Origin: Rhizobium rhizoryzae
GTDB taxonomy: Bacteria > Pseudomonadota > Alphaproteobacteria > Rhizobiales > Rhizobiaceae
Length of the DNA: 64,000 bases
Direction: 5' to 3'
Assembly (NCBI RefSeq): GCF_011046895.1
Contig: NZ_CP049249.1
Coordinates: 1-64,000, forward strand
Shown one piece after another: positions 24,922 through 50,146 of the stretch. How positions within the stretch are numbered: position 1 is the stretch's first letter; every line of letters begins with the position of its first letter. The position numbers and the translations under genes are program-made. A model generated the notes under the pieces. The model had not been told where the DNA came from. It did not search any database and worked only from the letters and a program-made list of their open reading frames with translations.

Positions 24922-25764
24922 TCAGTCGCGCGGATCGAGACGGTCGCGTAAACCATCGCCGAAGATGTTGAAGCCGAGCACAGTCAGGAAGATTGCAGCA
25001 CCCGGAAACCAGGCGAGCCAGGTTGCCTGGTCGATAAAGCTGATCGCATCACGCAGCATGCTGCCCCAGGTCGGGGTCGGCGGCTGGACGCCAAGACCGA
25101 GGAAGGAAAGATAGGACTCCGTGATGATCGACGAGGCAAGCAGCAGCGATGCTTGGACCAGGACCGGCGACAGGGCATTGGGCAAAACGTTGCGGGTCAT
25201 GATCGTCAGATTGCTAAAGCCGAGCGCCCGGTTCGCCTTCACGTAATCGAGGCTGGAGACCAACATGGTCTGGGCGCGGGTCACCCGGGCGATGGTCGGC
25301 GTGTTGATGACGGCGATCGCGATGATCGTGTTGGTAAGCGACGCGCCAAGCGCCGCTGTGATGCCGAGTGCCAGCAGGATGCCCGGAAAGGCCAGTAGAA
25401 CGTCCATGCAGCGCATCAGGACCGCATCTGTTCTGCCGCCCAGATAGCCGGCCAGAAGGCCGATCGGCAGGCCGACAAGAACCGCGCCACCGACGCTGAT
25501 CACGCCGACAAGCAGCGATACCCGTGCACCGGACAGGATACGCGACAGCACGTCGCGACCGAGATCGTCGGTACCGAGAAAATGATCGGCGGACGGTGGG
25601 GCAAGCGTCGCCATGAAGTCGGCAGCGTCAGGCGCATAGGTGGACAAGACCGGTCCGAACACGGCAGCCAGGACAAGGATGCTGACCAGCGCCATGCCGA
25701 AGGCACTGCGGCTGTCTTCCACAAGACGGCGTATCAACGAGTGAGATGCGGGAGCTGTGGTCAT
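24922..25764 (-). CDS. ABC transporter permease, DppC/OppC type
   Basis: 280 residues. Inner-membrane permease with an N-terminal cytoplasmic tail, a first membrane segment at about 21-40 (FGMALVSILVLAAVFGPVLS), the FLGTDDLGRDVLSRILSGAR motif that marks DppC/OppC proteins, and five further segments. The ATPase-coupling loop is in KANRALGFSNLTIMTRNVLP. Its start overlaps the end of the DppB-type gene by four bases. Forms the translocation pore with that protein. Confidence 0.94.
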   Translation of the reverse strand: MTTAPASHSLIRRLVEDSRSAFGMALVSILVLAAVFGPVLSTYAPDAADFMATLAPPSADHFLGTDDLGRDVLSRILSGARVSLLVGVISVGGAVLVGLPIGLLAGYLGGRTDAVLMRCMDVLLAFPGILLALGITAALGASLTNTIIAIAVINTPTIARVTRAQTMLVSSLDYVKANRALGFSNLTIMTRNVLPNALSPVLVQASLLLASSIITESYLSFLGLGVQPPTPTWGSMLRDAISFIDQATWLAWFPGAAIFLTVLGFNIFGDGLRDRLDPRD

Positions 25765-26705
25765 GCACGTTTCCTCAGTCTGGGATCGAGCGTCGCGTAA
25801 AGAAGGTCGGTGGCAAGATTGATGAAGACGAAGAGTACGGCGGATGCCAGGATGGCGCCTTGCACCACGGGATAGTCACGCGCGAAGATCGCATCGACCG
25901 TCAGCTTGCCGATGCCCGGCCAAGCGAACACCGTCTCCGTTACCACCACGCCGCCCATCAACTGGCCGAGCTGCAGGCCGACCAGCGTCGTGACCGGGAT
26001 CAGCGCGTTGCGCAGCGCATGTTTCCAGACCACACGTCGAAAGGGCAGGCCCTTGGCGCGCGCCGTACGGACATAGTCCGCATTCAGCACGTCCAGCATG
26101 GCGGCGCGGGTCATGCGCATGGTCGACGCGGCCATGGCGACACCGAGGGTGATCGCCGGCAGGGTGATGTGGCGTAAAGCGCCAACGGGATCTTCCCCGA
26201 TAGGCACATAGCCGGAGGAGGGGAAAATCTGCAGACGGATAGACAGGAAGAGGACAAGCAGGATCGCCAGCCAGAAGCTTGGCAGCGAAAGGCCTGCCAG
26301 CGAAATCAGCGAGACGCTATAATCGGCGACGCTGTTGCGGCGTGCCGCGGAAATCACTCCGGCCGGAATGGCGATGACGAGCGAGATCAAAAGCGCCGCT
26401 AGGCCGAGCTGCATGGTCGGCACCATGGCGGTCATGACCATGCTGAGGACCGGTCGGCCCGACTGGATGGAACGACCGAGATCGCCGATCAGAAGATGCC
26501 CGAACCAGGAGATAAACCGGAGCGGCAAGGGCTCGTCTAGAGCAAATTTTGCGCGCAGCGCGGCGATCGCTTCCGGCGTGGCATCCATGCCGAGCATGGC
26601 GGTGATCGGATCTCCGGGGATCATCGCGAGCAGCGTGTAGGAGAGCACGCAGAGGCCGAAGAGCACCGGAATGACCGAGAGGACGCGGGTAACGATCAGC
26701 TTCAT
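25761..26705 (-). CDS. ABC transporter permease, DppB/OppB type
   Basis: 314 residues from ATG at 26705 (a longer frame to 26858 adds arginine-rich sequence that is antisense to the ATPase gene). Membrane segment at about 9-28, then the signature LPLRFISWFGHLLIGDLGRS and the coupling loop region VRTARAKGLPFRRVVWKHAL. The start overlaps nothing but lies one base from the end of the preceding ATPase gene. Pairs with the DppC-type permease downstream. Confidence 0.94.
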   Translation of the reverse strand: MKLIVTRVLSVIPVLFGLCVLSYTLLAMIPGDPITAMLGMDATPEAIAALRAKFALDEPLPLRFISWFGHLLIGDLGRSIQSGRPVLSMVMTAMVPTMQLGLAALLISLVIAIPAGVISAARRNSVADYSVSLISLAGLSLPSFWLAILLVLFLSIRLQIFPSSGYVPIGEDPVGALRHITLPAITLGVAMAASTMRMTRAAMLDVLNADYVRTARAKGLPFRRVVWKHALRNALIPVTTLVGLQLGQLMGGVVVTETVFAWPGIGKLTVDAIFARDYPVVQGAILASAVLFVFINLATDLLYATLDPRLRKRA

Positions 26706-26706
26706 G

Positions 26707-27773
26707 TCAGATGTCCTCAGCCTGTTGCGTTTGGCGGTCACGAGCGCGGCGATAGGCGGCCATGCGGGCAGAGGCGGACGTGCCCGGCAGGGTGTCTGGG
26801 AGCGTTTCGACCTGCGGAAGCGTCGTGGCGAAGAAACAGGCCGACAGGTGGGCCGCATTCACGGGCATGAGTGGCGGCTCCTCCTGCGTGCATCGGTCCT
26901 GCACATAGGGACAGCGCGCGGCGAACCGGCAACCGGCGATGCGGTTGGTCGGATCAGGTGGCTCGCCGGTCAGAAGCACATGCGATTTTCTCTGGATCTC
27001 GACGCGGGGTGCGGCGGCCAGAAGCGCCCGGGTATAGGGATGCCTGGGATTGTCGAAGAGTTCGCGGGTCGGCGCCTGCTCGACGATCCGGCCCGAATAC
27101 ATGACCGCGACATCGTGGGCCAGATGGCGAACGACGGCGAGATCGTGCGAGATGAAGATGAAGGCGACGCCGGTATCGCGCTGCAGGTCCTGCAGAAGGT
27201 TGACGACCTGCGCCTGCACGGAAACATCAAGCGCTGACACCGGCTCATCGCAGATAATCAGATCCGGCTGCACCGACAGCGCCCGGGCGATCGCGACGCG
27301 CTGCCTCTGGCCGCCGGAAAACTGGTGAGGGAAGCGGTCCAGCTGTTCGGCGGACAGACCGACCGCTTCCATCAAGGCGGCGGCGCGCTTCGATGCTTCC
27401 GGCCTGTCGCAAAGCCGATGCAGCAGCATGGGGCGGACCAGGACCTCGCGAATGCGTTCGCGAGGATCGAGCGATGCAAAGGGATCCTGAAAGACGACCT
27501 GAACCCGCCGACGAAAGCGGCGAAGGCCATTGCTGTCGAGAGCCATGGCATCCTCGCCGTCGAGACGGATGCTGCCGCTGTCGGGATCCTGAAGGCGCAG
27601 CAGCAGGGAGCCGACCGTGCTCTTGCCGCAGCCGGATTCACCGACGACCGCAAGCGTGCGGCCACGCTCGACTGAAATGCTGACAGTGTCGACCGCATAA
27701 AAGCGCTTCGGCTTTCCCCAGCCGGTGGAGACGGAAAACGATTTCACCAAATTTTCGGCGGCGAGCAAGGGCG

Positions 27774-27777
<4 letters not shown>
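26707..27777 (-). CDS. ABC transporter ATP-binding protein, DppF/OppF type
   Basis: 356 residues from ATG at 27777, which overlaps the stop of the preceding ATPase (ATGA). Walker A is GESGCGKST, signature [15 protein letters not shown], Walker B DLIICDEPVSALD, switch His in FISHDLAVV. The C-terminal OppF extension has the Cys motif C-x6-C-x4-x-C (IAGCRFAARCPYVQDRC), typical of an oligopeptide/dipeptide/nickel transporter ATPase and probably a structural or [Fe-S]-like site. The upstream frame extension to 27858 is not coding. Confidence 0.93.
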
Positions 27778-28766
<989 letters not shown>

Positions 28767-28770
28767 CACG

Positions 28771-29673
28771 TCAGGCCTCCGTTTTGCAAAGGGCGGAGAG
28801 TTCGGCAGGGCTGGGCAGTGCGCGGAAGGCGCCGGGACGTGTGGCCGTGATGGATGCAGCAGATTGGGCATAGGCGATCGCTTTCTCCAACGAATGGCCG
28901 AGCGAGAGGGTCGCGCACAGCGCGCCGCAAAACGTGTCGCCGCAGCCGGTCGTGTCCCTGACCTTGACGGCAATCGCTTCGTGGTGCCGAGTGGTGCGGC
29001 TCGAGTGCACCAGACAGCCGTCGCCACCGAGCGTGATGATGGTGGTTTTTGCGCCTCGTTCGTGAAGCCTTGCAGCCGCAGCACGGGGATCATCCAGACC
29101 ACTGATGGCTTCGGCCTCACCGCGATTGACGACAAGAATATCGCAGTGGGCAAGCAGCGGCGTGGCATCCCACCAGATCGGGGCCGGGTTGAAGACCGTA
29201 TAGGCGCCACGGTCGCGTGCGGCCTTGAACCCTGCAAGTGTCGTCTCCTGCGTCAGATTTCCCTGGGCAAGGAAGATATCGCCTGCCTCAGTGTTGGCGG
29301 CGAAGCGGGACGCGGCTTCTTGAGAGAAGGCGGCGGCACAGGCGCCGGCCGTGACGATGCTGTTTTCGCCATCGGGCAAGACCATCAGGAGCGAAAAATC
29401 GCTTGAGCCTTCCGACCGCTGCGGTTCGAAGACCAGGTTTTGTTCGGCACCGAGGATTCGGATGATCTCCTCGCCCATGCCGTCATTGCCGATCGGGCCG
29501 GCAAAGCGCGTATCGGCCCCGGCGCGGGCGGCAACGACCGCCTGATTAAGGCCCTTGCCGCCAGGCGCACGTATGGCACCGTCGCCGAGCAGAGTTTCGC
29601 CCCGCTCGGGCAGGCGTGGCATCTGCAGGCTGATATCGAGCCCGGCATTGCCGAGTACAAGGACCTTAGCCAC
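28771..29673 (-). CDS. PfkB-family carbohydrate/nucleoside kinase (ribokinase-like)
   Basis: 300 residues. Ribokinase fold: the GGKGLNQAVVAARAGA substrate-binding motif at about 38-53 and the second signature DTTGCGDTFCGAL near 240-252 with the catalytic Asp in GCGD. Closest in pattern to ribokinase/fructokinase; the sugar or nucleoside is not known. It sits directly between the BtpA-like gene (six bases) and the transporter ATPases (four bases), so it should act on the transported compound or a product of it. A peptide-type importer next to a sugar kinase suggests a glycosylated or nucleoside-containing substrate. Confidence 0.9.
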   Translation of the reverse strand: MAKVLVLGNAGLDISLQMPRLPERGETLLGDGAIRAPGGKGLNQAVVAARAGADTRFAGPIGNDGMGEEIIRILGAEQNLVFEPQRSEGSSDFSLLMVLPDGENSIVTAGACAAAFSQEAASRFAANTEAGDIFLAQGNLTQETTLAGFKAARDRGAYTVFNPAPIWWDATPLLAHCDILVVNRGEAEAISGLDDPRAAAARLHERGAKTTIITLGGDGCLVHSSRTTRHHEAIAVKVRDTTGCGDTFCGALCATLSLGHSLEKAIAYAQSAASITATRPGAFRALPSPAELSALCKTEA

Positions 29674-29679
29674 GGGCGG

Positions 29680-30537
29680 TCAACTCCTTGCCTTCTTGAC
29701 GGCCTGCATAAAGACGTTCAGGCGCTCGGGATCGACCGGGTTCCACCAGACGCCATCGCGTTTCAGGTAGCTTGCGACGATGACGGCGTCTGCGACCGAG
29801 AATATATCGCCGACATTGTCTGGCGTGACGCCGGAGCCGACGGCGACGGGAAGCGACGTGCCGCTATCGATGGTCTGGAGCTCTTCCATGGTGGCGGAAT
29901 CGCCGGTGCGCTGGCCTGTGGCGATCGCTACGTCGGCGTCGAAGAATTCGTTGTCGCGGGCAAGTTCCTGGATGGTGCGGTCGCCGGTGATCGCATGGGC
30001 GCCGTGCTTGACGTGCACGTCGGCAAAGATCTTGATGTCGCGGGCGCGGAGGTACGCACGGTAGCGCGCAGCTTCGCCGGCAGGTCCGTCCATCAGGCCT
30101 TCGTTTGCGACATAGGCATTGGACCACTGGTTGACGCGCACGAAGGCGGCGCCAGCGGCCTTGGCGACGGCAATCGCCTGGATTGCCCCGTTGGCCAGAA
30201 CATTAACGCCGACCGGAATGCCGGTTGCACGACGCACCGCATCAGTCATGACAGCCATCGAAGCGGCGGTTTCCGGGCCGAGATTGTTCGGCTTGGCGAA
30301 CGGGATATCGCCGTGGTTCTCGACGATCAGGCCATCGACACCGCCGGCCTTGTAACGCTCTGCCTCGGCAACGGCAAAATCAACAATCTCGGACATCGGC
30401 TGACCGTCATAATCCGGTGAGCCGGGAAGAGCGAGGGAATGGATCACTCCGATGACGGCCTTGCGGCGGCCGAAAATCTGTTCGATGGCATTGGGCTTCA
30501 CGCGGAAGACCGGTTTAGCCTTTGGTGTTTCACTCAT
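29680..30537 (-). CDS. BtpA/SgcQ-family protein (TIM-barrel)
   Basis: 285 residues from ATG at 30537. BtpA/SgcQ family: AVIGVIHSLALPGSPDYDGQ near the N-terminus (compare GMVHL-PLPGSP in relatives), GVDGLIVENHGDIPF, GVNVLANGAIQAIAVAKAAG and FADVHVKHGAHA are all family landmarks. In cyanobacteria BtpA affects photosystem I stability; SgcQ in enterobacteria belongs to a sugar-use operon. The fold is a phosphate-binding barrel, suggesting an aldolase- or phosphoribosyl-type reaction. Coupling to a PfkB kinase here supports a phosphorylated sugar substrate. Enzymatic function unknown. Confidence 0.85.
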   Translation of the reverse strand: MSETPKAKPVFRVKPNAIEQIFGRRKAVIGVIHSLALPGSPDYDGQPMSEIVDFAVAEAERYKAGGVDGLIVENHGDIPFAKPNNLGPETAASMAVMTDAVRRATGIPVGVNVLANGAIQAIAVAKAAGAAFVRVNQWSNAYVANEGLMDGPAGEAARYRAYLRARDIKIFADVHVKHGAHAITGDRTIQELARDNEFFDADVAIATGQRTGDSATMEELQTIDSGTSLPVAVGSGVTPDNVGDIFSVADAVIVASYLKRDGVWWNPVDPERLNVFMQAVKKARS

Positions 30538-30570
30538 CTGGTTGCCTTTTTGATTTTGCAGTCTTTTTGG

Positions 30571-30603
30571 CACCGTCGCGAAGCATCAGGGCGCGCGACG
30601 GTG
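30571..30603 (-). other. Strong hairpin after the binding-protein gene
   Basis: CACCGTCGCG (30571-30580) and CGCGACGGTG (30594-30603) form a perfect 10-bp stem with a 13-base loop, between the binding protein and the BtpA-like gene. On the transcribed strand no T-run follows. Such hairpins commonly keep binding-protein mRNA more abundant than the rest of the operon. Confidence 0.6.
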
Positions 30604-30633
30604 TGTCGTGAAGTTAACGGAGAGCGGAAGGGA

Positions 30634-32154
30634 TCACTTCTGGAGCCACGCGTCGCCGAGGCGGAAGGCGGTGTCTGGGTAGGGCGTCCAGTGAAGCTTC
30701 TTGGTCGAGCCTTGCAGCGTTGAGTCAAAATGGAGGAACAGCATTCCGGCATCGTCGGAAATGATCTGCTGTGCCTGCCTGTACATCGCAGCGCGTTCGG
30801 TCTGGTCAGCGCTGACACGTGCCTTTTTCATAAGGCTGTCGACGTCATCATTGCTGTAGCCCGAGAAGTTGTTCGGACCCCCTTTGGTGAACCAGTTGTA
30901 CATGTTGCCATCCGGGTCCGGACGACCGGTCCAGGGCGACCAGGAGATATCGAAGTCCTTTTTCTGAAGGACCGAGATCAGGCTTGTCGCGTCAACCTGA
31001 CGAACCGAGACCTTGAAGCCGGCTTCCTGCGCCTGCGCCTGGATGATCTGTGCGATGCGAAGCTGCAGGGGCGAGGCGACGACGGTGATCGCGAACGGCA
31101 CACCGTCCGGATGGCCTGCCTCGGCTAGCAGTTGTCTGGCCTTTGCAACGTCACGCTTGTAGGGCTTGAAGTTCGGATCGAACGCCCAGGTGATCGGTGG
31201 TGGAACGGGGCCAAAGGCAGGCGAACCAGTATTGAAGTAGGCCACCTTGTTCACGACGTCCTTGTCCACGGAATACAGCAGCGCCTGACGGACCTTCATA
31301 TCGTTGAAGGGGGGCTTGGTATTGTTGATCGAGAAGGCATTGAAGCCGAGGCCCGGAATGTCGGCCACATTGACAGATGGATCGGTCTTGATCTGCGCCA
31401 GGCTCTGCGGCGGGACGATGTCGACCAGTTGGAGATCGCCACTTTTCAGGCCGGCCGTGCGCAGCGTTTCGTCAGGGATTGGTCGAATGATGACCTTGTC
31501 GAGGGGGGCACGTCCCTTGTAATAGCCGTCGAAGGCAGAGAGCACCATCTGGCCGTTTTTGGTCCAGCTATCGAGCTTAAAAGGTCCGGCACCAACCCCC
31601 TTGGTTGCGAAATCAGGACCGAGTTTCTGCAGCGCGGTCGGCGAGACGAAAAGGCCCGCACGGTTCGTCATCACCAAGGGAAACTGCGCGTAGGGCTGAG
31701 AGAACTTGACGGTGAAAGCAAGCGGCCCCGTAACCTCAACCGATGCGATCGGGCCGAGGTCCGAGCGACGCGGCGAACCGGTCTTTTGGTCAAGCATGCG
31801 GTCGAGATTGAACTTCGCGGCCGCGGCGTCGTAAGCGGTTCCGTCCTGAAACGTCACGCCCGGCTTGATCTCGAACGTGTAGGTGAGGTCATCGACCTGT
31901 TTGTAACTGGCGATGCCCGGGACGACCTTGAGATCCGGCGTCATGGTGAGCAGGGGTTCGTAAATCAGGTATTGCTCGTAGAGCTCGAAATAGGAGGCGA
32001 AGAAGGCGGGATCCAGCGTCACGGGATCCGAGACGACGCCGATGTTCAGCGTGCCGCCTTTTTCGGGCGTCTGAGCGGAAGCTGCGACGGGCAAAAGAGA
32101 TAGGGAGAGGGCTGCTAGGCCCAGAAACGAGCTGCGTATAGTCGTCAACGTCAT
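30634..32154 (-). CDS. ABC transporter substrate-binding protein, family 5 (DppA/OppA/NikA)
   Basis: 506 residues with a Sec signal peptide (FLGLAALSLSLLPVAASAQT, cleavage near residue 27). Mature protein has the family-5 landmarks: GGTLNIGVVSDPVTLDPAFF, YEPLLTMTPDLKVVPGIASY, VTFQDGTAYDAAAAKFNLDR and the C-terminal ISWSPWTGRPDPDGNMYNWF. The ligand is not predictable; the family binds peptides, glutathione, opines, sugars, nickel and more. First structural gene after the GntR regulator and periplasmic partner of the permeases and ATPases downstream. Confidence 0.93.
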   Translation of the reverse strand: MTLTTIRSSFLGLAALSLSLLPVAASAQTPEKGGTLNIGVVSDPVTLDPAFFASYFELYEQYLIYEPLLTMTPDLKVVPGIASYKQVDDLTYTFEIKPGVTFQDGTAYDAAAAKFNLDRMLDQKTGSPRRSDLGPIASVEVTGPLAFTVKFSQPYAQFPLVMTNRAGLFVSPTALQKLGPDFATKGVGAGPFKLDSWTKNGQMVLSAFDGYYKGRAPLDKVIIRPIPDETLRTAGLKSGDLQLVDIVPPQSLAQIKTDPSVNVADIPGLGFNAFSINNTKPPFNDMKVRQALLYSVDKDVVNKVAYFNTGSPAFGPVPPPITWAFDPNFKPYKRDVAKARQLLAEAGHPDGVPFAITVVASPLQLRIAQIIQAQAQEAGFKVSVRQVDATSLISVLQKKDFDISWSPWTGRPDPDGNMYNWFTKGGPNNFSGYSNDDVDSLMKKARVSADQTERAAMYRQAQQIISDDAGMLFLHFDSTLQGSTKKLHWTPYPDTAFRLGDAWLQK

Positions 32155-42537: not shown

Positions 42538-43452
42538 CTAGATCTTGCCGAACAACAGCGAGCGGTGCAGTCCGGCGCCGGCAAGGTTTCCATCGCCAAC
42601 CGCGAGAGCAACGGATGCCATCGGCCTCGCGGCATCACCACAGGCGAAAACGCCCGGCATGCTGGTTTCCTTCATCGGGTCCGTCCTAATCGGCGATCCG
42701 ATGGGTCCTTCTTCGAATTCCAGTCCAAGCTCCAAGGGTATGGGAGTGGTCATCTCGAAGGGCGCCAGCGCAAACAGGCCAGCAAAGGACAAGGTGCGTC
42801 CATCGGCAAGCATGATGTCGGCATGGCCGCTGATGGCTTCGACGGGACTGCGCTCGATGCTGACGCCGCGCATGGCAAGGCTTTGAAGCTGTTCCGCGGT
42901 CGGTTCGAACGCGTCGTTGAGGAGTAGCGTCGTGGTGCCCCAATCGGGCAGCATCAGGGCGTGATGCATCGAGAGCTCCGATCCGGCGATGACGCCGATC
43001 TGGCCTTTGTTCAGTTCGTAGCCATGACAATAGGGGCAGTGGAAGACAGACTTACCCCAGCGTTCCGCAAGGCCTGGCATGGCGGGCAGAATATCTTTCA
43101 CGCCGGTCGCCAGGAGCAAGCGGCGGGAGATGTGCCGCTGGCCATTGGCAAAGACTTCGAAACCCGCGCCTGATGCGTCATTCATTTCGATTCGCGCTGC
43201 ACGCTCCGCCCGACCGGACAGCCATCCGACCGTCTGGTACTGCATCACCTGGGCCCGCGCATCCGCCGCGATGCGGGCGGGATCCACCCCATCCTGCGTC
43301 AGGAAACCGTGGGAATGGCTGGCAAAACGATTGCGACGCTCGCCCTCATCAATGATCAGGACCGAGCGGCGGGCACGGGCGAGCTGGAGGGCGGCGGATA
43401 GGCCGGCATAGCTGCCGCCGATGATGATGACGTCGTAAATGGGATCGGCCAT
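42538..43452 (-). CDS. Thioredoxin-reductase-like NAD(P)/FAD oxidoreductase
   Basis: 304 residues from ATG at 43452. FAD-binding GGSYAGLSAALQLARARR at 12-29, then the second FAD site ACGDAARPMASVALAVGDGN near the C-terminus. A Cys139-Pro-Tyr-Cys142 pair (FHCPYCHGYE) sits where thioredoxin reductases have CAxC, so disulfide chemistry is possible, but the NADP-motif differs from true TrxB (GSELSMHHAL). Closest to the AhpF/TrxR-like reductases often found next to Rrf2 or other redox regulators. It is divergent from the Rrf2 gene with a dyad-rich 153-base gap. Partner protein unknown. Confidence 0.87.
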   Translation of the reverse strand: MADPIYDVIIIGGSYAGLSAALQLARARRSVLIIDEGERRNRFASHSHGFLTQDGVDPARIAADARAQVMQYQTVGWLSGRAERAARIEMNDASGAGFEVFANGQRHISRRLLLATGVKDILPAMPGLAERWGKSVFHCPYCHGYELNKGQIGVIAGSELSMHHALMLPDWGTTTLLLNDAFEPTAEQLQSLAMRGVSIERSPVEAISGHADIMLADGRTLSFAGLFALAPFEMTTPIPLELGLEFEEGPIGSPIRTDPMKETSMPGVFACGDAARPMASVALAVGDGNLAGAGLHRSLLFGKI

Positions 43453-43513
43453 GACATGCTCCTCAAAATCTCGACACAACATAAGTTGCGAGATGAAAAG
43501 GAGTCAATGCTCA

Positions 43514-43554: not shown

Positions 43555-43605
43555 AGCAAATAATGAACCTATGGTTTGGCCTTGATGCTGAACGGAGATG
43601 ATCGA

Positions 43606-44049
43606 ATGCGGCACGACAGCCGGCTATCCAGAATGCTGCATGTGATGATCCATATGGGTCATCATGACGGACCCATGACGTCGGACATGATCGCTGCCAT
43701 GCTGAATGCAAACCCAGTCGTCATTCGACGCACCATGGCAGGCTTGCGTGAACAGGGGTTTGTCCATTCCGAAAAGGGCCATGGCGGCGGCTGGACGCTG
43801 GCAAAACCACTGGATGATCTGACATTGCTCGATATCTATCGCGCTGTGGGGGAACCGTCCGTCTTTGCCGTCGGCCCGGCCTATGACATGCCAGGTTGCC
43901 TGATTGAGCAGGCGGTGAATGCCACGTTGAAAGATGTATTCGCAGAAGCCGAGCAACTGCTGCTCACCCGGTTTGCCGGGGTGACGCTGGCTGATATTGC
44001 CAAAGACTTTCCGGCGGTAATCCAAGAGTACGGCCAGCGCTGCGAATGA
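43606..44049 (+). CDS. Rrf2-family transcriptional regulator
   Basis: 147 residues from ATG at 43606, with GGAGA seven bases before it; earlier starts give longer but poorer N-termini. Winged helix: RLSRMLHVMIHMGHHDGPMT and NPVVIRRTMAGLREQGFVHS, then the wing EKGHGGGWTLAKPLDDLTLL, all Rrf2 landmarks. Only one internal Cys (MPGCLIEQ) and one near the C-terminus are present, so the three-Cys [Fe-S] site of IscR/NsrR is absent. It may sense a thiol-reactive signal, matching the divergent disulfide-type flavoprotein. Confidence 0.88.
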   Translation: MRHDSRLSRMLHVMIHMGHHDGPMTSDMIAAMLNANPVVIRRTMAGLREQGFVHSEKGHGGGWTLAKPLDDLTLLDIYRAVGEPSVFAVGPAYDMPGCLIEQAVNATLKDVFAEAEQLLLTRFAGVTLADIAKDFPAVIQEYGQRCE

Positions 44050-44105: not shown

Positions 44106-44861
44106 TCATCGGTCACAGGCTCGATTGAAAAGAAAGACAGTGCCTGCGAGCGTCAGCGTTGGCCATAAAACCAGCATCGGATTGTCGAAGATGAATATGC
44201 GGTATTCAAAGAGCATTCCACCCCAATCGGGGAGCGAAGGATCGGCGCCAAGACCGATAAAGGCGAGCGAGGCATAAGCAATGGCGGCAGAGCCGGACTG
44301 GTTGCCGACATAAGTCAGGATCGATGGCAGCGTGTTTGGCAAGAGATGACGAAAGAGCTTGCCGCTGGAGCGCACGCCAAGTGCCTCGGCTCCCAGCATG
44401 AAGGGTTGCGACAGGACGCGTCGCGTCAAGGCATGCGTGAACACAGTCAGCGGTCCGATGGCCGCAAGGCCCAGCGCCATGCCGGCGCTCAAGGGCGATA
44501 GCCCGAAGATGGCTGCTGCCGTCAGCGCGACGATCAAGGTCGGCACCATGATGAATACTTGGCTTGCCTTCAGGATTGCGACCTCCCGCCAGCCGCCGAG
44601 AAGGGCGGCGAGGGTTCCAAGCAGAGAGCCGCCCACCAGCCCGATCGCCCCGACGGCAAGGATTACGATAGCCGTCCGGAACCCGCCGACCATCAGCCGG
44701 GACAAGAGGTCGCGGCCCAGATGATCCGTTCCGAGGAGGTGTGGGATGCTTGGTCCGGCGTGACGGTTGAGGATATCAACCGCGTCCGGATCATGCGGTT
44801 GCCAGAAGCCACCGGCGAATAGAAGGGCAAGCAGCAGGAGCGGAAGCACAGCGCGGTTCAT
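44106..44861 (-). CDS. ABC transporter permease, DppC/NikC type (B12-riboswitch operon)
   Basis: 251 residues from ATG at 44861; the open frame extends to 45116 only as antisense of its neighbour. DppC landmarks HLLGTDHLGRDLLSRLMVGG and coupling loop EALGVRSSGKLFRHLLPNTL, then SAAIAYASLAFIGLGADPSL. Shorter than many DppC proteins because the N-terminal tail is brief (MNRAVLPLLLLALLFAGGFW is the first membrane segment). The start overlaps the DppB-type gene by four bases. Last gene of the operon; no ATPase gene follows. Confidence 0.92.
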   Translation of the reverse strand: MNRAVLPLLLLALLFAGGFWQPHDPDAVDILNRHAGPSIPHLLGTDHLGRDLLSRLMVGGFRTAIVILAVGAIGLVGGSLLGTLAALLGGWREVAILKASQVFIMVPTLIVALTAAAIFGLSPLSAGMALGLAAIGPLTVFTHALTRRVLSQPFMLGAEALGVRSSGKLFRHLLPNTLPSILTYVGNQSGSAAIAYASLAFIGLGADPSLPDWGGMLFEYRIFIFDNPMLVLWPTLTLAGTVFLFNRACDR

Positions 44862-45775
44862 GGCAGGCGTGGCTCCAGCCGCAGCATCATCAGCCGTGCC
44901 AGGCAATCGATGCTCACCATCCAAAGTGCGATGACCATGACATAGGCCTGCAACACCATCTGATCGCGCATCGAGATACTCTGAACCAGGAATTGGCTGA
45001 TCCCCGGAAGGCCAAACAGGATTTCCATGGCGGCGGCGCTGCCGATTACCCAGCCGGCTTCGGAATGCACGGCGGCAAGAACCGCATACAATGCGCTCGG
45101 ATGGGCATGACGCCACAGTGCTTGTGTTTCGGACAAACCTTTGGCACGAGCGGTGACGAACCAGGGCTGTATTGCGGCTTCCTGCAGACCTTTGCGGTAA
45201 ACTCGGGCCAGAACTGCAGTGGAATGCAGGGCAACGAGCGCGATAGCCAGCACCAGTGAGGCACGGTCATTGGCGAACGGTCGTATCCACCGCAGTTGCA
45301 CGCCGAACACCCAGATCAGCACGAGCCCGGTCGCAAACACCGGCGTGGATTGCGTGAACACGGACAACAGGCGACTGAACCGATCTGCGACCCCGCCCGG
45401 CTTCACGACTGCCGCAAATCCGAGCGGCAGGGCCAACAACAGGGCAAGGCAGAGCCCGGCAATGCCAATGCTGAGCGACAGGGGCAAACGGTGGAGGAAC
45501 TCGGTACGGACGGGTTCACCCGTCCGGAAGGATCGTCCCCAGTCGCCGTGCAAAAAGTCCCGGCCCCATCGGAGATAGCGGGAAATCAGAGGCCGGTCGA
45601 GACCCCAGTCCTGGCGCAGGGCGGCCATCGTCTCGTCGGTTGCGGGCAGATTCCAGGTGCGAATGGCGATCTCGACAGGGTCGACCGGCATCAGGGTGAT
45701 GATTGCAAAGGCTGCGAAAGACACGACAAGCAGGCCGAGCGCTGTCTGCAATCCCCATGATGCCAGCTTCTTCAT
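44858..45775 (-). CDS. ABC transporter permease, DppB/NikB type (B12-riboswitch operon)
   Basis: 305 residues. First membrane segment LGLLVVSFAAFAIITLMPVD, then SRYLRWGRDFLHGDWGRSFR, the usual DppB signature. Coupling loop in VTARAKGLSETQALWRHAHP. Starts four bases after the binding-protein stop. With the DppC-type subunit it forms the pore of an importer controlled by the cobalamin riboswitch. Confidence 0.93.
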   Translation of the reverse strand: MKKLASWGLQTALGLLVVSFAAFAIITLMPVDPVEIAIRTWNLPATDETMAALRQDWGLDRPLISRYLRWGRDFLHGDWGRSFRTGEPVRTEFLHRLPLSLSIGIAGLCLALLLALPLGFAAVVKPGGVADRFSRLLSVFTQSTPVFATGLVLIWVFGVQLRWIRPFANDRASLVLAIALVALHSTAVLARVYRKGLQEAAIQPWFVTARAKGLSETQALWRHAHPSALYAVLAAVHSEAGWVIGSAAAMEILFGLPGISQFLVQSISMRDQMVLQAYVMVIALWMVSIDCLARLMMLRLEPRLP

Positions 45776-45779
45776 GGCT

Positions 45780-47282
45780 TCACTTGCTCTCGCCGATATC
45801 GGCGCGCAGGACGTGATAGTCCGATCCCCAGGGCTCGTAACCCTTCAGTCTGTCGGAGACGCCGACATACCAGACCGGCGAGACGAGGAAGGAAACGGGC
45901 ACGTCGTCAAACAGCTTCGCTTGGGCGTCCAATGCAATCTGGATGCGTTCGGCGGGGTCGCCGGTGGTGGCGAAGCGGTCGATGATGGCGTCGAATTCCG
46001 GCGATGCATATTTGGTATAGTTGAGCGAGGCACCGCTTCGCAGCATCGAGTTCAGGAAAAAGGCCGGATCGCCGCTGGGGGCGGTGTGTTGGGCCCAGAG
46101 CGCGATGTCGAAATTGCCGCTGGCCGCCGCCTCTGCAATATTGTCCACGATCTGTGTGTCGAGCCCGATGCCGATCCGGGAAAGCTGTGCCTTGACGACC
46201 GGCAGCATGGTGACCAGATCCGGCCGTTGCGGGTATGTGATCGCCAGCAGCTTCAGAGCCTTGCCGTCCTTGGTACGCATGCCGTCGGTGCCCTTTGTCC
46301 AGCCCGCAGTATCCAGGATCGCGGCAGCCCTGGCAGCATCTGTCGGCCGGGCTTGGCTGCCGGCAAACGGAAAATAAGGAGCATAGGCGCCGGTTGCCGG
46401 TGTTCCGCCATTGATGGCAGCGGCCAGTTCCTTGCGATCGAAGGCGAGGTCGATGGCCTGGCGCACGGATTTGTCCTGAACCACCGGCCTTGTCGTGTTC
46501 AAAAAGGCAAAATACTGGTACCCGACCGCGAAGGATTTGACTGTCAGGGACGGATCACGCGTCAGTCGGGCGGCAACTTCGGAGGGGAGACCAAAGGCCA
46601 GATCCAACTCCCCGGATTGAAAGGCCAGCGCCATGGTTTGCGCATCGCCGAACCGTTTCAGTGTCAACGGTCTGCGCTGGTCCGCCCCTTCAAAATGGGC
46701 ATTCGGCTTCAATTCGATCGCCGCATCGACCTTGAAATCCGCGATTTCGTAGGGGCCGGTAAAGATCGTCTTGCCGTCCTCGGCTGCCGGCTTGTAGGCA
46801 ATCAGCGGCCATTCGGCAAACAGGGCCTGGATGAGAGGAACCGGCTTTTCCGTCGATACCCTGAGGGTGAGGTCGTCTGCTGCTGCAAACGTCAGTTTCC
46901 CGCCTGTCGCCAATGCTGCCTTGTTGTTGGCAAAGGTGCGCTCGAAACCGGCCGCCAAAGCTGCGGCTGTCACGGGCGTGCCATCAGAGAATGCGCGCCC
47001 TGCCTTCAAGGTGATCGTCCAGGTGAGGTCGCCCGTGCGTTCGGCCTTTTCGGCCAGTTCCGGTACAAGTTTGCCTTGCCTGTCGACGGTAAACAGGTTT
47101 TCGCCAACCCCGTGGCTGGTGAGCGCCCAGCCATTTGATCCCTTGGCCGGGTCAACGCCACTGGTGATGAAGGTTGCGCCGATGCGCAAAGGCTCAGTCG
47201 CTGCTGCGGGCCACGCGACGGCCACAAGGGCTGCGGTGGCGATCAGCGCGCTGCTGAGGCGCTGGCGGAGCGGAATGGGCAT
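45780..47282 (-). CDS. ABC transporter substrate-binding protein, family 5 (NikA/DppA-like), B12-regulated
   Basis: 500 residues. Signal peptide SALIATAALVAVAWPAAATE, cleavage near residue 29. Mature part: LRIGATFITSGVDPAKGSNG, LTWTITLKAGRAFSDGTPVT and the C-terminal NFDIALWAQHTAPSGDPAFF. The short WTITLK-AGR-FSDGTP and SGDPAFFLNSM segments are like nickel/peptide-binding relatives. Because the operon begins with a cobalamin riboswitch and a CbiX-like protein, cobalt, a cobalt chelate or a corrinoid piece is the likely cargo; ordinary family-5 substrates remain possible. 21 bases separate it from the CbiX-like gene. Confidence 0.9.
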   Translation of the reverse strand: MPIPLRQRLSSALIATAALVAVAWPAAATEPLRIGATFITSGVDPAKGSNGWALTSHGVGENLFTVDRQGKLVPELAEKAERTGDLTWTITLKAGRAFSDGTPVTAAALAAGFERTFANNKAALATGGKLTFAAADDLTLRVSTEKPVPLIQALFAEWPLIAYKPAAEDGKTIFTGPYEIADFKVDAAIELKPNAHFEGADQRRPLTLKRFGDAQTMALAFQSGELDLAFGLPSEVAARLTRDPSLTVKSFAVGYQYFAFLNTTRPVVQDKSVRQAIDLAFDRKELAAAINGGTPATGAYAPYFPFAGSQARPTDAARAAAILDTAGWTKGTDGMRTKDGKALKLLAITYPQRPDLVTMLPVVKAQLSRIGIGLDTQIVDNIAEAAASGNFDIALWAQHTAPSGDPAFFLNSMLRSGASLNYTKYASPEFDAIIDRFATTGDPAERIQIALDAQAKLFDDVPVSFLVSPVWYVGVSDRLKGYEPWGSDYHVLRADIGESK

Positions 47283-47303
47283 AATGACCTCTCGTCTCGT
47301 TGA

Positions 47304-48098
47304 TTATGGATTCGGGAATCTTGGTGTTTGCAGCGGCCGCAGCCGCTGCTTGCGTCCGGTCGGGTGATAGGCGAAATCCTCCACGACCGTTCCGCCCAAC
47401 AGGTGCTCGGTGATGATGCGGTCGACGGCCGCCTCGGTGACGCCGCCGTAATAGGTGCCCTCGGGAAAGACCTGGACGACAGGGGCAAGATTGCAGGGGC
47501 CGAGGCAGGTGGATTTCGCGGTCATGGTGCCTTCGCCCGTTGTCCGCAGCTTCAGGCGTTGCTGTTCGTTGCGCAGGTGGCACCAGAGGGCGTCGGCACC
47601 TGCGCCATTGCAGGGGCCGCCCTGGCAGACCAGGACCCGGCGTTTCTGGTCCGGCACAAGCGAACCTTCGGCGAGGGATTTCTGATCAACGGCAAGATCG
47701 AAGGATGTGGCTGACGCGACCAGATCTCCAAGTAGTGCGGCCATGACCGGACTTGCCGCGATGTGAGCGGTGAGTGCTATCTCCGGCCATGGCCGGTGAT
47801 CCTCGTTTCGCCAGCGGCGGACCACTTTTTGCAGCCAGGTGGGAACGCTGGGCTCCATGGGCAGAACAAGCGGGACAATGCTGACATGGGAACAGCCCTC
47901 GCCGACCAGCGCCAGCAGCGCTTCCTTGAGAGACGGAGTGCCTTGTTCAATGAAGGCGTAACGCACGACGGCGTCAGGCCGGTGTTCGGCCATGACGCCC
48001 GCAAGGCGCGCCATGTCGGCGTGAGGCGCCGCGGCAAAAGCGGATTTCGCGATGAGAAGAACGGCGCGCCGTTCGTCCAGTTCTATTTCTTTCGTCAC
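47304..48098 (-). CDS. CbiX-like domain fused to thioredoxin-like [2Fe-2S] ferredoxin
   Basis: 264 residues. The N-terminal 130 residues follow the sirohydrochlorin chelatase (CbiX/SirB) pattern (VVRYAFIEQGTPSLKEALLA; SHVSIVPLVLPM). The first catalytic His, normally in a GHGS motif near residue 18, is replaced (LLIAKSAFAA), while His71 remains, so chelatase activity is uncertain. The C-terminal part is a thioredoxin-like ferredoxin: Cys158-x4-Cys163 (VCQGGPCNGAG) and Cys198-x3-Cys202 (CLGPCNLAPVVQV), the ligand spacing of that family. It is first in the cobalamin-riboswitch operon, 115 bases after the aptamer. A role in cobalt handling or corrin-ring metal chemistry is inferred. Confidence 0.85.
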   Translation of the reverse strand: MTKEIELDERRAVLLIAKSAFAAAPHADMARLAGVMAEHRPDAVVRYAFIEQGTPSLKEALLALVGEGCSHVSIVPLVLPMEPSVPTWLQKVVRRWRNEDHRPWPEIALTAHIAASPVMAALLGDLVASATSFDLAVDQKSLAEGSLVPDQKRRVLVCQGGPCNGAGADALWCHLRNEQQRLKLRTTGEGTMTAKSTCLGPCNLAPVVQVFPEGTYYGGVTEAAVDRIITEHLLGGTVVEDFAYHPTGRKQRLRPLQTPRFPNP

Positions 48099-48212
48099 TG
48101 CGTGCCTCGCGCGTGAGCGGTCGAGGCTAGCAACGAAATGACGACGCGCGCGAACCCCTTGGTACGCGAACGAGCCATTCCGGCGGCAGACCCCGACCGC
48201 GGAATTCTATCT

Positions 48213-48378
48213 TGTCAGGCAGGTCTCCTGGCTCACGGGTCTATGCCTTCCCCTGTCTTCCCAACCTTTTCAGGTCAGTGACGTTTTCGGGGACGGCTCG
48301 CCGTTTACAGTTGCGGGACAGCTCCGGCGTCGCACCGGATTCCCTCTTAGCTTCCACCAGTGATGGAAGAACCTTGAC
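48213..48378 (-). ncRNA. Cobalamin (B12) riboswitch
   Basis: On the minus strand the conserved core is clear: GAGGGAATCCGGTGCGACGC, then CCGGAGCTGTCCCGCAACTG, then TAA, GGGAAGACAGGGGAAGGC and the final B12 box AGCCAGGAGACCTGCC at about 48218-48234. Paired arms flank the core. It lies 115 bases upstream of the CbiX-like start, so binding of adenosylcobalamin should shut off the whole four-gene operon by termination or masking of the ribosome-binding site. Confidence 0.95.
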
Positions 48379-49154: not shown

Positions 49155-50039
49155 TCATTGAAATATCGACAGCTTCATCACCTCATCGACAAAGTCGGCA
49201 ACGATGCGCGAAGGATAGCGGTTCGGCGGCAGTACCAGCAGGGTGCGGAAATAGATCGCCGGTTTGAATGGGATGATCGTCAGGCCACGCCCCACATAGG
49301 GTTCGGCCGTCATGGGGTTGACGAGGCCGACTCCGAGCCCTGCCTGAACCATGGCGCAGATGGTGGTCGAATACGGCGTTTCCAACACGACCTTCAGCTT
49401 GGTTGCGCGGTCGCGAAAGATAGCTTCAGCGGCTCGTCGCGTCGTGTCTTCAGGGGAAAGGGCAATGAAGGCTTCTCCGTCGAGATCCTCTGGCGTCAAC
49501 TCAGTGGCCTGCTCCAGGCGATGCCCCGCTGGAACGGCGATGGCGGCACGATAGCGCGCGAAGGGCCGAACATCGACGCCTTCGGTCTCGATCTCGTCGG
49601 CTGCCAGCCCGACATCGACCTGGCCGGACGCTACTAGATCTTTCACAGTAGAGGACAGTTGCGCCTGAAACGAAATGGCGACATTTGGATGCCGCGCCTG
49701 AAAACCGCGCAAAGCGCGTGGCAAAATATTGGTGCTCAGCGCAGATAGGCTTGCCACTTTGATTTCGCCTGATCCGAAATCACGGATTCTCGCTGCGGCA
49801 CTTTTGAGCCGTGTGAGCCCGGAAAACGAACTCTCCACTTCCTTGAAGAAGATGTTCGCTTCGGCGGTCGGATACATGCGACCGCGTTCGCGCCGGAACA
49901 GGGCAAATCCGATATCGCGCTCGAGTTCCTGGATCGCTTTGCTGACAGCAGGTTGGGAAATGCGCAGCACCTCGGCAGCCCGAGAGGCTGTGCTGTTAGT
50001 CATCACGGCATGGAACACCTCGACCTGACGAATATTCAT
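49155..50039 (-). CDS. LysR-family transcriptional regulator
   Basis: 294 residues from ATG at 50039. HTH: MNIRQVEVFHAVMTNSTASR followed by AAEVLRISQPAVSKAIQELE. The effector domain (GEIKVASLSALSTNILPRAL; AMVQAGLGVGLVNPMTAEPY) resembles NocR/OccR-type and other amino-acid-responsive regulators. It is divergent from the C-S lyase/aap operon with 107 bases between starts and so probably controls it. Possible inducer: a sulfur-containing amino acid or opine-like compound. Confidence 0.9.
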   Translation of the reverse strand: MNIRQVEVFHAVMTNSTASRAAEVLRISQPAVSKAIQELERDIGFALFRRERGRMYPTAEANIFFKEVESSFSGLTRLKSAAARIRDFGSGEIKVASLSALSTNILPRALRGFQARHPNVAISFQAQLSSTVKDLVASGQVDVGLAADEIETEGVDVRPFARYRAAIAVPAGHRLEQATELTPEDLDGEAFIALSPEDTTRRAAEAIFRDRATKLKVVLETPYSTTICAMVQAGLGVGLVNPMTAEPYVGRGLTIIPFKPAIYFRTLLVLPPNRYPSRIVADFVDEVMKLSIFQ

Positions 50040-50146
50040 TCGACACCTCATAACCCACGAGAATAAAGTAGCAGGATAATGATATTGGACGGAATTGATA
50101 TGCCGATGTTTTAATCCGCTCACGAAATTGCTCAGGATGAAGCGGA

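Follow-up and report, generated by a model that had tools for sequence, protein, structure and literature searches.

We examined a riboswitch-led operon on the reverse strand of Rhizobium rhizoryzae contig NZ_CP049249.1 (assembly GCF_011046895.1), within a window consisting of the first 64,000 nucleotides of that contig. A sequence-only reading of this DNA had described a B12 riboswitch followed by a CbiX-ferredoxin fusion and a NikA/DppA-type importer made up of a family-5 binding protein and two permeases, tightly coupled and without an ATPase gene at either end, whose cargo should serve B12 synthesis. The riboswitch heading the operon was borne out by cmscan, which matched the cobalamin (B12) riboswitch family RF00174 at 48392–48201 (−) over the full model (1–189; 139.3 bits, E = 4.7 × 10−35), with the full core present and a score exceeding the gathering cut-off of 31.5 bits; the Rfam scan of the 64-kb window returned no other match. 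A leader (48080–48200, −) connects the aptamer to the first gene and contains a predicted hairpin (folding z-score −2.83 for 48080–48215) in which the GUG start codon is paired and AGG, a putative ribosome-binding site, lies in the loop, making translational control by this hairpin likely under the folding model. The first gene (47304–48098, −) starts with GTG and encodes a 264-aa fusion of a CbiX-like domain (PF01903) to a thioredoxin-like [2Fe-2S] ferredoxin domain (PF01257), hereafter the CbiX-[2Fe-2S] protein. It is followed by genes for a periplasmic family-5 solute-binding protein (SBP; 45780–47282, −; 500 aa; SBP_bac_5, 226 bits), a NikB/OppB-type permease (P1; 44858–45775, −; 305 aa) and a NikC/OppC-type permease (P2; 44106–44861, −; 251 aa), the last gene of the operon. 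Both permeases match BPD_transp_1 and fall below the NCBIfam cut-offs for their nearest families (Opp2B, 230 bits against 350; Opp2C, 149 against 300).

The genes are as closely coupled as had been described, with P1 and P2 overlapping by 4 bases and the remaining gaps measuring 21 and 4 bases. The true start of P2 lies near 44861, and the longer open reading frame reaching 45116 is an upstream extension. No gene for an ATP-binding cassette (ABC) ATPase flanks the operon on either side in the window. We considered whether P2 is truncated or whether downstream genes were lost in this strain alone, and rejected both possibilities since its orthologs (246–275 aa) share the same end. Downstream, the operon is bordered by an Rrf2-type regulator on the opposite strand (43576–44049, +), beyond which lies a thioredoxin-reductase-like flavoprotein gene (42538–43482, −), and upstream by a LysR gene (49155–50123).

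The ATPase-less layout recurs in dozens of species. A scan of 84,980 genomes for SBP orthologs recovered 51 alphaproteobacterial loci at 45–94% identity, with two further matches (22–25% identity) belonging to unrelated complete systems. Carriers include Rhizobium, Neorhizobium, Agrobacterium, Allorhizobium, Shinella, Aminobacter, Hoeflea, Kaistia, Mesorhizobium, Cohaesibacter, Roseibium, Tateyamaria, Ahrensia and others, and occurrence is patchy, with the operon in 7 of 151 genomes within the family. The gene preceding the SBP encodes the CbiX-[2Fe-2S] protein in 25 of the 51 loci and a DUF1636 protein (PF07845), directly upstream, in 15. The riboswitch is present at all 25 CbiX-[2Fe-2S] loci (detected through the B12 box in 23 and through Rfam in L028 and L029) and at a minimum of 13 of the 26 loci lacking this gene; near the SBP relatives L042, L043, L048–L053 and L057, most of them with DUF1636, none was found at the Rfam gathering score (L053 was judged by the B12-box pattern only). 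Forty-six loci extend as far as P2, and none of them has an OppD/F-like ATPase behind it (within about 3 kb, same strand; the L057 sequence stops 209 bases past P2), the nearest case, L031, being a separate complete system. One locus in Rhizobium sp. ASV20 (L059) retains only SBP residues 4–73, 94% identical and without a CbiX-[2Fe-2S] gene upstream, and is a deletion or recombination remnant.

Searching plasmid records for distant relatives revealed systems that do carry ATPases. In Fusobacterium vincentii (SBP 41%, P1 33% and P2 36% identity) and Aerococcus tenax (35%, 35% and 40%), the order SBP-P1-P2 is followed immediately by two ATPase genes, and neither locus has a B12 riboswitch at the Rfam threshold. 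The Fusobacterium SBP keeps the motifs THG, LLAEW and AQHTAP. The simplest reading is of an ancestral five-gene importer whose ATPases would have been lost in the alphaproteobacterial branch. The EAA-like loops through which permeases dock to their ATPases are nevertheless kept, as AKGL..ALWRH in P1 (conserved across 49 sequences) and LG...RHLLPN in the P2 orthologs. This conservation argues that P1 and P2 are still driven by some ATPase.

We then asked which ATPase this might be, using PF08352 searches and region reading, through which ATPases lacking the oligo_HPY domain could escape. The R. rhizoryzae genome encodes about 18 OppD/F-type units, each adjoining permeases of its own, and in Ahrensia, Cohaesibacter and Kaistia, which have few such ATPases each, the PF08352 search found none without permeases. 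Across these four genomes the OppDF-type ATPases mostly stand beside their own binding protein as well. The ATPase pair at 26707–28766, put forward earlier as one possible donor, did not hold up: it sits inside a complete SBP-permease-ATPase operon (24922–32154), and Ahrensia, Cohaesibacter and Kaistia, all of which carry the ATPase-less operon, lack a reciprocal ortholog of it. DppDF (L110) alone among the ATPase units has reciprocal best matches in all three (60–71%), making it the best-conserved donor candidate. A single universal donor was rejected, given that a close DppD ortholog is found in 22 of 28 carriers and missing from six at E 1e-95, and that Kaistia yielded no reciprocal match to YejF. 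Because the ATPases found adjoin permeases of their own and DppD is limited to 22 of 28 carriers, a dedicated orphan appears to be absent and a single donor is improbable, and the best reading of these patterns is that resident OppDF-type ATPases are used promiscuously. On Paracoccus aminophilus plasmid pAMI1 (L177), the ATPase-less operon and its riboswitch immediately follow a complete two-ATPase peptide importer, an obvious candidate for the donor there.

Further ATPase-less sets of this class were encountered in the regions of the R. rhizoryzae genome that were read. L096 (G000:C3:458001-470000) and a second set in L102 (G000:C4:1603500-1619500) each consist of a family-5 SBP with permeases and have no ATPase pair of their own next to them; one of the two stands behind another complete system. 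In L103 (G000:C4:1619501-1636000), an OppDF-type ATPase of 614 aa with two fused domains, together with an M20-type peptidase-like gene, is divergent from an SBP-permease-permease set without an ATPase.

The SBP, which has a Sec-type signal peptide as judged by eye, resembles nickel-binding proteins most closely, at a distance, and the families closest to the importer transport nickel or nickel/cobalt. It scores 260 bits against the NCBIfam Opp5A_nikA model (cut-off 600) and 134 against NikA (cut-off 393). Its AlphaFold model (predicted local distance difference test (pLDDT) score 90.7) matches SaNikA with a nickel complex (4xkr) best in the PDB, and the top Foldseek matches are 4xkr, 3rqt and 3t66; overall, the nearest structures are nickel binders of E. 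coli, B. halodurans and S. aureus (SaNikA). The NikA-like half of the earlier NikA/DppA assignment thus stands, whereas the DppA-like half does not. The aspartate that binds the peptide amino group, which we take to be D419 in OppA and D408 in DppA, is replaced by an invariant Pro402, so that the SBP lacks the pocket Asp of peptide importers; the preceding pocket Trp is replaced by a nearly invariant His399 (both positions from alignment only), and His57 is invariant.

Genomic context ties the operon to B12 synthesis, in agreement with the cargo proposed by the sequence-only reading. CobN is encoded in all 29 carrier genomes tested. CobW genes lie nearby in L025 and L042 and, judged from sequence, in L038 and behind P2 in L057 as well, while in Shinella a metE gene with its own B12 riboswitch adjoins the operon. 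The other two B12 riboswitches of R. rhizoryzae precede a solo CbiM and a DUF1636-CobW-CobN cob operon. Together, CobN in every carrier tested, the CobW, DUF1636 and metE neighbours and the riboswitch context support cobalt as the cargo, and an importer for cobalt or a cobalt complex feeding B12 synthesis is the most likely function by these sequence associations. We had considered that the operon might be distributed complementarily to other cobalt importers, and rejected this, as 26 of the 28 other carriers have CbtA or CbiM and only Tateyamaria and Roseibium lack both. This coexistence leads us to favour chelated cobalt over simple Co(II), with a corrinoid and nickel as live rivals. The riboswitch of the solo CbiM-like gene (226 aa; L002, 769–1449, −) lies at G000:C3:721340-721546, with no CbiN, CbiQ or CbiO gene beside it in the stretch read.

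We next turned to the CbiX-[2Fe-2S] protein. Both parts of the predicted fusion are recognized by Pfam (CbiX, 32.7 bits, approximately residues 27–123; 2Fe-2S_thioredx, 42.4 bits, residues 148–231), and Foldseek matched a CbiX (3lyh), CfbA and a [2Fe-2S] ferredoxin (1m2a); the structural model is of moderate quality (pLDDT 71), and we made no use of the relative placement of its domains. The four ligand cysteines, Cys158, Cys163, Cys198 and Cys202, are invariant in 25 sequences and 10 diverse relatives, so that the full four-cysteine set of [2Fe-2S] ferredoxins is present and cluster binding is predicted. Both chelatase histidines, on the other hand, are absent: the 25 close relatives read AKS or similar and P-x-EPS at these motifs, and the 10 diverse ones have no His. 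While the fusion itself is upheld, we therefore rejected a cobaltochelatase role for its CbiX part. Such an activity should also be dispensable for the B12 synthesis of the carriers, since the CobN-type route inserts cobalt late and should need no CbiX chelatase (pathway knowledge; PMC7689651).

Homologs of the CbiX-[2Fe-2S] protein also accompany unrelated transporters. Judging genes by sequence, we found them with FecBCD-type importers in L179, in L181, where a riboswitch leads the cluster, and in L180, where a riboswitch, a TonB receptor and cob genes are also present. In plasmid records, with genes taken as annotated, Azospirillum homologs occur with importers of this type and TonB receptors; on plasmid p4 of A. 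brasilense Sp 7 (L183), the homolog is flanked by a FecBC-type importer and a TonB receptor and adjoins nikR and a cobN-ExbB-DUF2149 set. On Rhodococcus plasmids (L184 and L185; Actinobacteria) it is the last gene of FecBCD-type importer operons, and in Acidovorax the ferredoxin part alone adjoins cobJ. The protein therefore appears to follow the cargo rather than the transporter, and we propose that its role may be to release or reduce an imported metal complex.

Rhizobia and other B12 makers feed many other organisms, and the supply of cobalt is limiting for B12 synthesis. We propose that the operon encodes a B12-repressed importer of a cobalt chelate, powered by an OppDF-type ATPase that it borrows, a reading to which we assign a probability of roughly 0.55. 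A drop in adenosylcobalamin would cause the riboswitch to release translation, upon which the SBP would capture a cobalt complex in the periplasm, for example a small Co-histidine-type chelate, and P1 and P2 would move it across the inner membrane. With the importer's own two ATPases lost, the OppD/OppF-type pair of a resident peptide-class importer would drive the permeases; the donor may differ by species, and of the candidates DppDF is conserved best. The CbiX-[2Fe-2S] protein would then receive the cobalt or its complex in the cytoplasm and probably release or reduce it, for instance converting a cobalt(III) chelate to Co(II), and the freed cobalt would enter the CobNST route. In sister lineages, the DUF1636 protein may take the place of the CbiX-[2Fe-2S] protein. 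A more ambitious version, which we hold only tentatively, makes the CbiX-[2Fe-2S] protein a cytoplasmic handling factor not described before, working with unrelated transporters in Alphaproteobacteria and Actinobacteria, and makes the importer the first metal importer of the peptide/nickel class to depend permanently on ATPases that it shares with peptide importers. Such a factor could be a cobalt- or nickel-chelate reductase or chaperone, by analogy comparable in role to siderophore reductases.

Several observations weigh against the cobalt-chelate proposal. CbtA is present in 20 of the 29 carriers and CbiM in 12 of 28 as well as in R. rhizoryzae, so that most carriers have another likely cobalt importer and this one may carry something different, such as a chelate, nickel or a corrinoid. 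The metal-site His416 of E. coli NikA, essential according to the title of PDB entry 3qim, is not conserved in the SBP alignment. The Fusobacterium and Aerococcus relatives lack the riboswitch and Aerococcus is, to our knowledge, not known as a B12 producer, so the cargo of the family may be broader. No ATPase ortholog group is common to all carriers.

Among the alternatives, the operon could encode a nickel importer, or an unselective importer of Ni, Co and Zn complexes, brought under B12 control in the alphaproteobacteria. The similarity of the SBP to NikA and Opp5A, the nikR gene beside the Azospirillum cluster, an upstream group of urease accessory genes in L038 (assigned by sequence) and the coexistence of other cobalt importers are consistent with this, but the 25 CbiX-type loci are all under a B12 riboswitch rather than nickel control and the neighbours belong to B12 synthesis, and we consider it unlikely. 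Somewhat less probable still is the import of a corrinoid or tetrapyrrole for salvage of B12 precursors, with the CbiX-like domain binding the tetrapyrrole. B12 riboswitches also govern corrinoid uptake, the CbiX fold binds tetrapyrroles (the Foldseek match to CfbA is with sirohydrochlorin), heme binders occur among family-5 binding proteins in the PDB, and related CbiX-[2Fe-2S] genes adjoin TonB receptors and BtuF/FepB-type binding proteins. Yet CobN in all 29 carriers makes own B12 synthesis probable, the nearest binding-protein families are nickel ones, and the operon includes no outer-membrane receptor gene, with no BtuB or salvage genes adjoining it in the loci read.

With respect to the motor, a dedicated ATPase pair elsewhere in the genome might serve this importer only, for which the orphan MsmX and MsmK of sugar importers provide a precedent (PMC7658222). 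We regard this as improbable, because every PF08352 OppDF-type ATPase in R. rhizoryzae, Ahrensia, Cohaesibacter and Kaistia adjoins permeases and none of the three B12 riboswitches of R. rhizoryzae, which head this operon, the solo CbiM and the cob operon, precedes an ATPase. Finally, the missing ATPase, the patchy distribution and the truncated Rhizobium sp. ASV20 copy could suggest a decaying remnant whose permeases and SBP no longer transport, so that only the CbiX-[2Fe-2S] protein would give the operon its value. Against this, the frames stay open and residues of the pocket and the EAA loops are conserved across dozens of species, at identities as low as 45%, which makes it very improbable.

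The retention of a motor-less importer in some fifty species makes it testable whether OppDF-type ATPases can power multiple sets of permeases, in the way known for MsmX and sugars. The CbiX-[2Fe-2S] protein occurs with cobalt/nickel-type importers of more than one kind and is in turn a candidate for acting after a cobalt complex has been taken up and before cobalt is inserted. Our search of the openly accessible literature found no description of this gene set, which is apparently an undescribed, conserved variant of the nickel/peptide importer class. Its novelty is bounded by known relatives on every side, the specialist interest lying in the shared ATPase and the CbiX-[2Fe-2S] partner.

Compared with NikABCDE and the Opp5A-Opp2BC systems (NF045468, NF045470, NF045474 and TIGR02294), the operon has the same folds and the order SBP-permease-permease, with SaNikA and the B. 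halodurans nickel-binding protein as the nearest solved structures. It differs in lacking NikD and NikE genes (in the window and in 46 relatives), in scoring far below the curated cut-offs, in not conserving His416 and in carrying the additional CbiX-[2Fe-2S] or DUF1636 gene. NikABCDE behind a B12 riboswitch has been predicted in C. tetani and D. hafniense (PMC2667541). CbtJKL of Sinorhizobium meliloti, a relative of R. rhizoryzae, is likewise an ABC cobalt importer under an adenosylcobalamin riboswitch and is needed at trace cobalt (PMC7689651). As CbtJ is described there as BtuF-like, a different fold family from the SBP_bac_5 and BPD_transp_1 subunits found here, the operon does not, on that account, coincide with this characterised cobalt transporter, and we rejected filing it under CbtJKL; the FecBCD-type clusters with CbiX-[2Fe-2S] genes (L179, L181, L183, L184 and L186) do resemble the CbtJKL class. 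The CbiX-[2Fe-2S] protein shares the fold of its respective domains with the class II chelatases CbiX, CfbA and SirB and with thioredoxin-like [2Fe-2S] ferredoxins, and is unlike the chelatases in having lost both histidine motifs. With regard to energy supply, a 2020 paper stated that ATPase sharing had until then been described for CUT1 sugar importers only, where the orphan multitask ATPases MsmX and MsmK serve ATPase-less importers (PMC7658222), and FhuC, which energises Isd heme uptake, is a later case (PMC10147376). The present importer resembles these in having genes without an ATPase and, presumably, energy supplied from elsewhere, and differs from the MsmX and MsmK case in belonging to the peptide/nickel class and in having no orphan ATPase among those found.

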